Assembly: GCA_030426265.1 (NCBI GenBank)
Contig: JAUHYP010000011.1
Location: 1-64,000, forward strand
Origin: Gammaproteobacteria bacterium
Lineage (GTDB): Bacteria > Pseudomonadota > Gammaproteobacteria > Xanthomonadales > SZUA-36
Direction of reading: 5' to 3'
Length of the DNA stretch: 64,000 nt
Shown here: piece after piece, positions 58,691 through 61,222 of the stretch
Numbering within the stretch: position 1 is the stretch's first letter
How the letters are laid out: each line of letters starts with the position of its first letter
Made by a program: the position numbers and the translations under genes
Notes under the pieces: generated by a model
The model's database searches: none
Seen by the model: the letters and a program-made list of their open reading frames with translations, nothing else
Told to the model about the DNA's origin: nothing

Positions 58691-61222
58691 ATGAGAATAA
58701 GACTGGCGGCCATGCGCCGTTCGCTGCTGCGCATCCTGCTGTTCCCGACGCTGTGCCTCGTGCTCGCCGGCCCCGTGCGCGCCTTCGACCCCTTCGTCAT
58801 TTCCGACATCCGGGTCGACGGCCTTCAACGCATCTCCGAGGGAACGGTGTTCAACTACCTGCCCCTGAATCCCGGTGACACGCTGAACGGCTCCGACGCC
58901 CGGGCCGCCATCCGCGAACTCTATCGCACCGGCTTCTTCGCCAACATCGAGTTCGGTCGCGAAGGCGACATCCTGGTGATCACGCTGACCGAGCGGCCCG
59001 CCATCGCCAGCATCGCCCTGTCCGGCAACAAGGCGATCAAGGAAGAAGACCTGCGCCGCGTGCTGAGCGACATCGGCCTGGCCGAGGGCGAGGTCTTCGA
59101 CCCCCAGGCCCTGGACCAGATCCAGCAGGAACTGGTCGCGCAGTACTACAGCCAGGGGCGCTACGCCGTGGCCGTGGACACGCGCGTGACCAACCTCGAC
59201 CGCAACCGCGTGCGCATCGCCATCAACGTCGACGAGGGCAAGACCGCCAAGATCCGCCACATCAACGTGACCGGCAACACGCTCTACACGGACGAGGAAA
59301 TCCGGGAGGAGTTCGAGTCCGGCACGCCGCCTTTCTGGAAGTTCTGGTCCAAGGAAGACGACTACACCCGCGAGAAACTTTCCGGCGACCTCGAGAAGAT
59401 CCGCTCCTACTACCAGGACCGCGGCTACATCGACGCCAACGTCGAATCCACCCAGGTGGCGATCAGCCCCGACAAGCGGGACATCTTCATCACCGCGAAC
59501 GTCACCGAGGGCGAGCTGTTCAACATCAACGAGATCCAGGTGACCGGCGATCTCGTGGTGGACGAAGCAGCCCTGCGACGACTGATCATGACCGACGCCG
59601 GCGAGGTCTTCTCGCGCAAGGAGATGGAGCAGAGCGTGGACAACATCACCGCGCTGCTGTCCAACATCGGCTACGCCTTCGCCAACGTGAACCCCATCCC
59701 GCAGATCGACCGGGAAAACCTCACGGTGGACATCAACTACTACGTGGACCCGGGCAAGCGGGTCTACATCCGCCGCATCCTGTTCGTCGGCAACGCCGGC
59801 ACCAAGGACGAGGTGCTGCGGCGCGAGATGCGCCAGATGGAAGGCGCCTGGTTCTCCCAGGCGGCCATCGACCGCTCCAAGGTGCGCCTGCAGCGCCTGA
59901 CCTATTTCGAGACCGTCGAAATCGAAACGCCGCCCGTGGCCGGAACCGACGACCAGGTGGACGTGATCGTGTCGGTGGTCGAGCGTCCCGCCGGCAGCTT
60001 CTCGGTGGGCCTGGGCTACTCCGAGATCCAGGGCCTGATCTATTCCATGTCCATCCAGCAGGACAACTTCCTCGGCAGCGGCAAGCAGGTCGGCGCGGCG
60101 GTGTCGTCCAGCGACATCATCAGCAACTTCAGCTTCAGCTACGACAACCCCTACTGGACCGACGACGGCGTGAGCCGCGGCTTCTACGCCCGCTACTCCG
60201 AGTTCGACCGCGCGGCCGCCAACATCTCGACCTACACCAGCTCCGAGGCGGCCCTGGGCATGAGCTTCGGCGCCCCGCTGACGGAAATCGACTACGTGCG
60301 CGCGGGCCTGGGTTACCGCACCACGGACATCAACATCGGCAGTTTCATCCTGGATGTCGAGATTCCGGAAGACCCGGACGTCCCCGACGTGACGATCTGT
60401 TTCCCCGGCCTGACGGGCGACACCCCGCCCTGCGGACAGACCTACTTCGTGCCGATCGACGGCGACCCCCTGTCCTCCTCACTGGACTTCGACGGTGACG
60501 GCGTGCTGTCCAGCGACGAGCGCGAGTTCGATGTGGGAGACGTCACCCTGTCCTGGGCCCGTGACAGCCGCAACCACTTCCTGAACCCCACCATGGGCTC
60601 CTCCCAGCGCCTGACCCTGGAAGCCTCGATCCCGGGCAGCACCCGCGAGTACTACAAGCTGTTCTACCGCTACGCCAAGTACATTCCGGTGACCAATGGC
60701 CTCACGTTCTCCTTCCACGGCGACCTGGGCTACGGCGACTCCTACGACAGCTACGATTCCGACTCCCAGGCCACGCCCGTCGAGGACACGACGATCCGTC
60801 CGGGCGCGAGCTGCCTGCAGGAGGAGGTCATCGACCTCGACCGGGGCCTCCCGTTCTACGAGCACTTCTACGGCGGTGGCGTACGCGACATCCGTGGCTT
60901 CGACGACAACACCCTGGGGCCGAAGGACCCGTTCTGCCGCGCCGTCGGTGGTGACTTCAAGGTCTCCGGCGGGATGGAACTGGCCATTCCGACGCCGTTC
61001 ACGCAGGGCGCCGGCTCCCGCATCGCCCTGTTCGTGGACGTGGGCAACGTCTACGAGGACATCGACACCTTCGACGCCGACCTGCTGCGCGCTTCCGCGG
61101 GCCTGTCCGTGACCTGGCAGGCGCCGATCGGCCCCATCATCATGAACTTCGCCTTCCCCCTGATCGAAAAGGAAGGCGACCGCACGGAGACCATCCAGTT
61201 CTCCTTCGGCACCACGTTCTGA
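58691..61222 (+). CDS. bamA: Outer membrane protein assembly factor BamA
   Basis: An 843-residue Omp85 protein with a signal peptide (ILLFPTLCLVLAGPVRA), five POTRA domains (about 25-425) and a C-terminal 16-strand barrel. It inserts beta-barrel proteins into the outer membrane. POTRA1 begins FVISDIRVDGLQRISEGTVF, and the barrel motif VRDIRGF corresponds to VRGF in loop 6. The end SFGTTF gives the terminal aromatic. A barrel loop at about 560-615 holds Cys570 and Cys581 (TICFPGLTGDTPPC) and an EF-hand-like DFDGDGVLSSDE at 599-610, unusual for BamA. Met at 58712 is an alternative start. Confidence 0.98.
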   Translation: MRIRLAAMRRSLLRILLFPTLCLVLAGPVRAFDPFVISDIRVDGLQRISEGTVFNYLPLNPGDTLNGSDARAAIRELYRTGFFANIEFGREGDILVITLTERPAIASIALSGNKAIKEEDLRRVLSDIGLAEGEVFDPQALDQIQQELVAQYYSQGRYAVAVDTRVTNLDRNRVRIAINVDEGKTAKIRHINVTGNTLYTDEEIREEFESGTPPFWKFWSKEDDYTREKLSGDLEKIRSYYQDRGYIDANVESTQVAISPDKRDIFITANVTEGELFNINEIQVTGDLVVDEAALRRLIMTDAGEVFSRKEMEQSVDNITALLSNIGYAFANVNPIPQIDRENLTVDINYYVDPGKRVYIRRILFVGNAGTKDEVLRREMRQMEGAWFSQAAIDRSKVRLQRLTYFETVEIETPPVAGTDDQVDVIVSVVERPAGSFSVGLGYSEIQGLIYSMSIQQDNFLGSGKQVGAAVSSSDIISNFSFSYDNPYWTDDGVSRGFYARYSEFDRAAANISTYTSSEAALGMSFGAPLTEIDYVRAGLGYRTTDINIGSFILDVEIPEDPDVPDVTICFPGLTGDTPPCGQTYFVPIDGDPLSSSLDFDGDGVLSSDEREFDVGDVTLSWARDSRNHFLNPTMGSSQRLTLEASIPGSTREYYKLFYRYAKYIPVTNGLTFSFHGDLGYGDSYDSYDSDSQATPVEDTTIRPGASCLQEEVIDLDRGLPFYEHFYGGGVRDIRGFDDNTLGPKDPFCRAVGGDFKVSGGMELAIPTPFTQGAGSRIALFVDVGNVYEDIDTFDADLLRASAGLSVTWQAPIGPIIMNFAFPLIEKEGDRTETIQFSFGTTF

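Follow-up and report, generated by a model that had tools for sequence, protein, structure and literature searches.

The window analysed here is a 64,000-nucleotide stretch of a gammaproteobacterial contig. On its forward strand lies bamA (58691..61222), which begins with an ATG at 58691 and encodes a protein of 843 amino acids with an N-terminal signal, five POTRA domains and a barrel. In a profile search the protein scored 800.7 bits against the TIGR03303 equivalog (cut-off 297.15, E 1.3e-240), which identifies it as BamA. The domains found were five POTRA stretches and a C-terminal Omp85 barrel at residues 459-843. Cysteines occur at residue 22, near the N-terminus, and at residues 570, 581, 708 and 749. 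The neighbouring genes, recognized by eye, resemble what we take to be the usual uppS-cdsA-dxr-rseP-bamA-skp-lpxD-fabZ-lpxA run. A search of E. coli genomes at the DNA level returned no match.

We modelled the window BamA with AlphaFold2 from 61 sequences and without an ion (mean pLDDT 83.7, pTM 0.57). The best fold matches of the model were solved BAM complexes, including those of E. coli and N. gonorrhoeae BamA, and a manual count gave sixteen strands in the barrel. Extracellular loop L4 comprises residues 549-611 (60335..60523, forward strand) and is bounded by β7 (534-548) and β8 (612-625). The initial annotation had expected this part of the barrel half to face outside. Structure prediction agreed, since the order of the strands puts the loop on the extracellular side and rules out a periplasmic placement. 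With 63 residues, L4 is longer here than in most other BamAs that we saw; when aligned to solved chain 9pxj_A, the window protein has 61 residues (556-616) where that chain has 16. In the alignment to solved chain 5d0o_A, presumably the E. coli BamA chain, query residue 544 falls on residue 533, shortly before L4 residue H555. H555 is described as an L4 residue of E. coli BamA (PMC6287456).

The end of L4 holds a predicted EF-hand-type calcium loop, DFDGDGVLSSDE, at residues 599-610 (60485..60520, forward strand), just as the initial annotation had proposed from the DxDxDGxxxxxE-type pattern. The loop has the features expected of an EF-hand loop: acidic or amide ligands at positions 1, 3 and 5, Gly at 6, a hydrophobic residue at 8, Ser, Asp, Thr or Asn at 9 and Glu at 12. 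Residues 599-610 also agree with the pattern Dx[DN]xDGx[ILV][DSTN]x followed by a later acidic ligand. In the model, the pLDDT block means here are 83 (591-600) and 84 (601-610). A short helix enters the loop at residues 593-597 (PLSSS; 60467..60481, forward strand; assigned by DSSP on the model), the loop follows, and a second helix at 608-611 is succeeded directly by β8. A second model, of a relative (L045; 33 sequences, mean pLDDT 80.8, pTM 0.55, again without an ion), has the same arrangement, with helices at 566-571 and 581-584, a strand from 585 and, by offset, the motif at 572-583. The helices predicted to flank the motif, of only 5 and 4 residues in the window protein, are far shorter than those of a true EF-hand. 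Both models contain a stretch with pLDDT below 50, at residues 565-580 in the window protein, which includes Cys570, and at 538-557 in the relative.

When the BamA protein was shuffled 20,000 times, the canonical pattern D.[DN].[DN]G.[ILV][DSTN]..E appeared in 0.04% of the shuffles and a looser version in 0.84%. Even the looser pattern had only its BamA match among all window frames of at least 120 aa. A chance match is ruled out by the shuffles together with the conservation described below, of which conservation is the stronger evidence. The Pfam EF-hand models (PF00036, PF13202 and PF13405) did not hit the window fragment, and the best of the six fragments searched reached 15.7 bits against the required 25.9. 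The thrombospondin type 3 repeat model (PF02412, cut-off 25) matched one of six fragments, from a relative, at 10.4 bits (E 0.57), and a PDB sequence search with the L4 fragment of a relative yielded no hit.

The source genome has four Omp85-domain matches (L001-L004), and among the frames that we inspected only BamA has the motif. The 642-, 404- and 745-aa frames at the other three Omp85 loci (L002-L004) are free of Dx[DNS]x[DNS]G, as are all frames of at least 400 aa at the LptD locus of the same genome (L253). These frames speak against the motif as a general habit of the outer-membrane proteins of this genome. A neighbouring 495-aa frame in L002 holds two loose matches.

We followed the loop through 76 BamAs, 36 from the window's family (f1) and 40 from a related family (f9) that is apparently the Wenzhouxiangellaceae; we refer to these as the clade. 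Position 599 is Asp in all 76, position 601 is Asp or Asn in 74, position 603 is Asp or Asn in 75, position 604 is Gly in 71, position 606 is Leu or Ile in all 76, and position 610 is Glu in 75 and Asp in 1. Positions 600, 605, 608 and 609 vary widely. Mean column entropy is 0.48 bits over positions 599, 601, 603, 604 and 610, as against 2.0 bits over the six x positions and 0.93 bits over residues 35-430. Fixed ligands amid variable x positions are the pattern expected under selection for metal ligands. The clade rows have a median pairwise identity of 58% and a minimum of 46%, and the codons are mixed (GAC 42 and GAT 34 for D599; GAG 46, GAA 29 and GAT 1 for E610). This mixture indicates that selection, and not recent descent, has held the ligand residues. 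The alignment thus bore out the earlier expectation that near relatives would have the Asp ligands, and the Asp and Glu ligands are kept in distant clade members as well. Judged from these alignments, the loop is a real, selected, clade-specific feature.

The full motif pattern is present in 70 of the 76 clade BamAs. The glycine at position 6 is altered in four of the exceptions (L019, L033, L146 and L198), the third position is Thr in L219, and positions 5, 6 and 12 differ in L221. Since these six depart from the pattern, the site is not strictly indispensable. They also lend something to the view that the loop is simply acidic and holds no Ca2+ in the cell, its resemblance to an EF-hand being incidental or a relic, as do the acid-rich stretches in BamA loops elsewhere in the order (L174 and L165). 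We nevertheless consider that view improbable: the ligands keep their exact spacing amid variable neighbours, and acidity alone would not keep positions 1, 3, 5, 6, 8 and 12 in register.

Conservation extends to residues that are not ligands. P593 and R611 are each found in 76 of 76 clade BamAs, and S597 and L598 are well conserved. Such residues could form a contact surface, in which case a Ca2+-organised L4 might serve mainly as an interface that docks a surface partner, for example a lipoprotein, another outer-membrane protein or LPS phosphates bridged by Ca2+. A precedent of a kind is the canopy of the F. johnsoniae BAM complex, where BamM has seven ions assigned as calcium and L5 of BamA is expanded to bind BamM (PMC12611786). 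We think this role unlikely, because R611 and P593 might just as well pack within the loop and because no candidate partner was found among the adjacent genes, which resemble the usual run.

Beyond the clade, the motif pattern was found in none of 119 BamAs. These comprise 52 hand-picked from nine further families of the order and 67 of 80 more distant loci; one of the 119 (L242) matched at just 32% identity and is possibly not orthologous, and another (L081) is a partial frame. The f1-like loci in the 80-locus set (L035-L046 and L051) come from metagenome-assembled genomes placed mostly in the Lysobacterales or Xanthomonadales or left as unplaced Gammaproteobacteria. Among the further families of the order that we read, many BamAs have a shorter L4 of the TPxxxIDYLxxLG type, and some have an unrelated longer one. 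One BamA of family f4 (L174) has an acidic stretch in L4, CDGPDTDTDGTGPDTDTDVNTPC, that is apparently independent. Another, of family f2 (L165), has VDSNGDGVIDTY at about residues 772-784 of its frame, in the barrel half and apparently in the L6 region; this is perhaps a separate calcium-type loop.

How the clade was sampled affects how these counts are read. In f1, 36 of the 39 genomes searched had a BamA match, and the identical 36 matched when L4 was the query. The 40 f9 genomes came from a search across the order (398 genomes) in which the L4 region served as query, a design that could hide f9 genomes lacking the motif. As a check on this bias, 18 f9 genomes retrieved with whole BamA as query (completeness at least 90) were all among the 40; 16 of the 18 have the motif with Gly6, and all 18 keep D1, D/N/S3, D/N5 and E12. 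In a class-wide search with the L4 alignment against 369 genomes (E up to 0.1), 71 genomes had some match. Many of the matches lay in frames other than BamA, such as the multi-motif frames in L247, L249 and L251. Most of those in frames of BamA length covered the strand after the loop, and those of one genus covered motif columns as well. The motif was absent from L245, L246 and L248, which are the three parsed of the five BamA-length loci inspected (the others being L244 and L250). This draw contained one f1 genome and, among the rows listed, no f9 genome, with 278 matchless genomes lying outside those rows.

On a quick tree built from the POTRA part (74 rows), one change of state suffices to account for the motif in f1 and f9, and f1 (17 rows, without f1g12) forms one starred group. 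A second quick tree omitted three fragments and so covered 73 of the 76 clade rows, together with 6 outgroup rows; it set the clade apart from the outgroup (99*). It placed the four f1g12 rows away from the remaining f1, and branching within the clade is unsettled. Apparently the motif was gained once and then kept across two families. A pattern of the form (L/I)[DE]xNG stands just before β8 in 5 of the 67 distant BamAs (L101, L087, L064, L068 and L105), as in WIDENGDKFLNL of L101 (WIDENGDKF), and also in L246 and L248; it is found at the end of L4 in none of the 52 rows from the order. Our hunch is that such a sequence could have been the starting point from which a short insertion made the loop.

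The initial annotation also drew attention to Cys570 and Cys581, which could close a small disulfide loop within L4 (60398..60433, forward strand). Both residues exist, but they lie 29 and 18 residues before D599 and not 30-40 as it had stated. Its suggestion of a possible disulfide fared only partly well: the cysteine pair is there, but it is not tied to the calcium motif. Of the 76 clade BamAs, 42 have two cysteines in the 45 residues that precede the motif block (35 of 36 in f1 and 7 of 40 in f9), while the motif stays. Cys570 falls in the stretch with pLDDT below 50, and Cys581 comes just after it. On the sequences compared, the named L4 pair is outside the conserved core. In 17 of the 76 (12 in f1 and 5 in f9) the L4 cysteines bracket a second Dx[DN]x[DN]G stretch, for example CNDLNQNGICPE and CFNDLDKDGICDE; carriers include L013, L147, L150, L151 and L146. 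Perhaps this bracketed stretch, placed before the EF-type loop, is a second calcium site in tandem; in the window protein, CFPGLTGDTPPC may represent a degenerate version of this stretch. On the tree, the second stretch needs seven changes and the L4 cysteine pair four, so that the history of both is unsettled.

A different pair of cysteines belongs to the constant part of the protein. Cys708 and Cys749 flank VRDIRGF in L6 (60812..60937, forward strand), and cysteines fill both alignment columns in 76 of 76 clade BamAs. A separate parse found one cysteine before and one after RGF in 75 of the 76, as against 0 of the 119 others (4 of these 119 unparsed). A disulfide between Cys708 and Cys749 in L6 is likely. 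Two cysteines after RGF, instead of one on either side, were seen in 20 of the 119.

The loop had earlier been attributed, with a perhaps, to adaptation to a calcium-rich or marine setting. Such a cause is not needed, and it is weakened by an apparently soda-lake genome of f9 (L205) that keeps the motif as DEDGDGFLSRSE. Life in a hypersaline soda lake is on record for Wenzhouxiangella strain AB-CW3 (PMC7691419). The retention of the loop in the soda-lake-like genome also counts against a switch, in which binding or loss of Ca2+ at L4 would alter the opening of the barrel and hence the activity of BAM. Some observations do connect this region with function: in E. coli, the antibody MAB1, which recognizes one of the extracellular loops of BamA, inhibits the folding of outer-membrane proteins; its binding is disrupted by H555Y in L4, and other resistance sites lie in the strand after L4 (T571 and G575) as well as elsewhere (V322 and P518) (PMC6287456). 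In our AlphaFold2 model the loop here runs directly into β8. However, we found no sign of regulation, and we consider a switch very improbable.

Our preferred reading, which we hold to be probable, is that L4 of the clade holds a structural, EF-hand-loop-type Ca2+ site. The site would fold the end of L4 at the surface and, together with the staple in L6, give a rigid outer cap. This interpretation draws on the sequence comparisons and the two models. L4 would arrive at the cell surface, an environment generally far richer in Ca2+ than the cell interior. There, one Ca2+ would be bound by D599, D601, D603, the backbone of residue 605 and E610. Around the bound ion, the last part of L4 would wind up as a compact helix-loop-helix running straight into β8, and L4 would thereby be fixed over the outer mouth of the barrel. 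Along with this site, the L6 staple (Cys708-Cys749) and, in many members, the small Cys-bounded loop in L4 would make the cap stiffer against unfolding, proteolysis or attack.

A structural role for Ca2+ is favoured by the fit of the motif to a published Ca2+-binding pattern of secreted and surface proteins. Proteins of many unrelated folds are reported to bind Ca2+ through Dx[DN]xDGx[ILV][DSTN]x, with Dx[DN]xDG loops strongly biased to cell-surface or secreted proteins, perhaps because calcium is high outside, and sometimes found in a longer loop than homologues without the motif have (PMC3123361). The clade may go further than a stiff cap. We can imagine that its BamA is a calcium-dependent outer membrane assembly factor, in which Ca2+ at L4 and the staple in L6 act as a late checkpoint, so that the machine is locked or gated once its own cap is at the surface and not before; the ancestral form perhaps had two Ca2+ loops in tandem (CxDxNxNGxC...DxNxDG). 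We offer this as speculation and rate its chances as slim.

BamA is an essential protein whose outer loops are accessible to antibodies such as MAB1. A predicted ion-binding-type cap shared by two families is a natural experiment on the role of L4, and it suggests that a core assembly machine can gain extracellular modules. The L4 of this clade is also a test case for whether metal binding helps surface loops to fold after translocation.

Among known systems, the closest in kind are the convergent Dx[DN]xDG loops (PMC3123361). The window loop shares with them a linear motif that includes a hydrophobic residue at 8 and Ser at 9, a position between secondary-structure elements in a surface part of the protein, and a longer host loop. 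It differs from them in that its host is the barrel protein BamA and in that the site is a prediction from sequence. The main text of that paper contains "outer membrane", "barrel", "Omp" and "TonB" 0 times. Among the matches listed in a search of the open-access literature by title and abstract, there was no earlier report of a calcium motif in BamA. We therefore describe a known kind of calcium loop as a predicted site in a new host protein.

With the canonical EF-hand (PF00036, PF13202 and PF13405), the BamA loop has in common a 12-residue loop with Asp1, Asp/Asn3, Asp/Asn5, Gly6, Ile/Leu8 and Glu12 and, in the model, short flanking helices. It departs from the canonical form in the brevity of those helices, the second of which merges into a barrel strand, and in its scores below the Pfam cut-offs. 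L4 of E. coli BamA is the same surface-exposed loop between the equivalents of β7 and β8, and "calcium" occurs 0 times in the main text of the source (PMC6287456); the window's L4, in contrast, runs to its full 63 residues and ends in the EF-hand-type loop. The BAM complex of F. johnsoniae resembles our case in having ions assigned as calcium on the extracellular side together with expanded BamA loops (PMC12611786). There, the ions sit in the lipoprotein BamM and the expanded BamA loops are L5 and L6, whereas the predicted calcium loop of the window lies in L4 of BamA itself.
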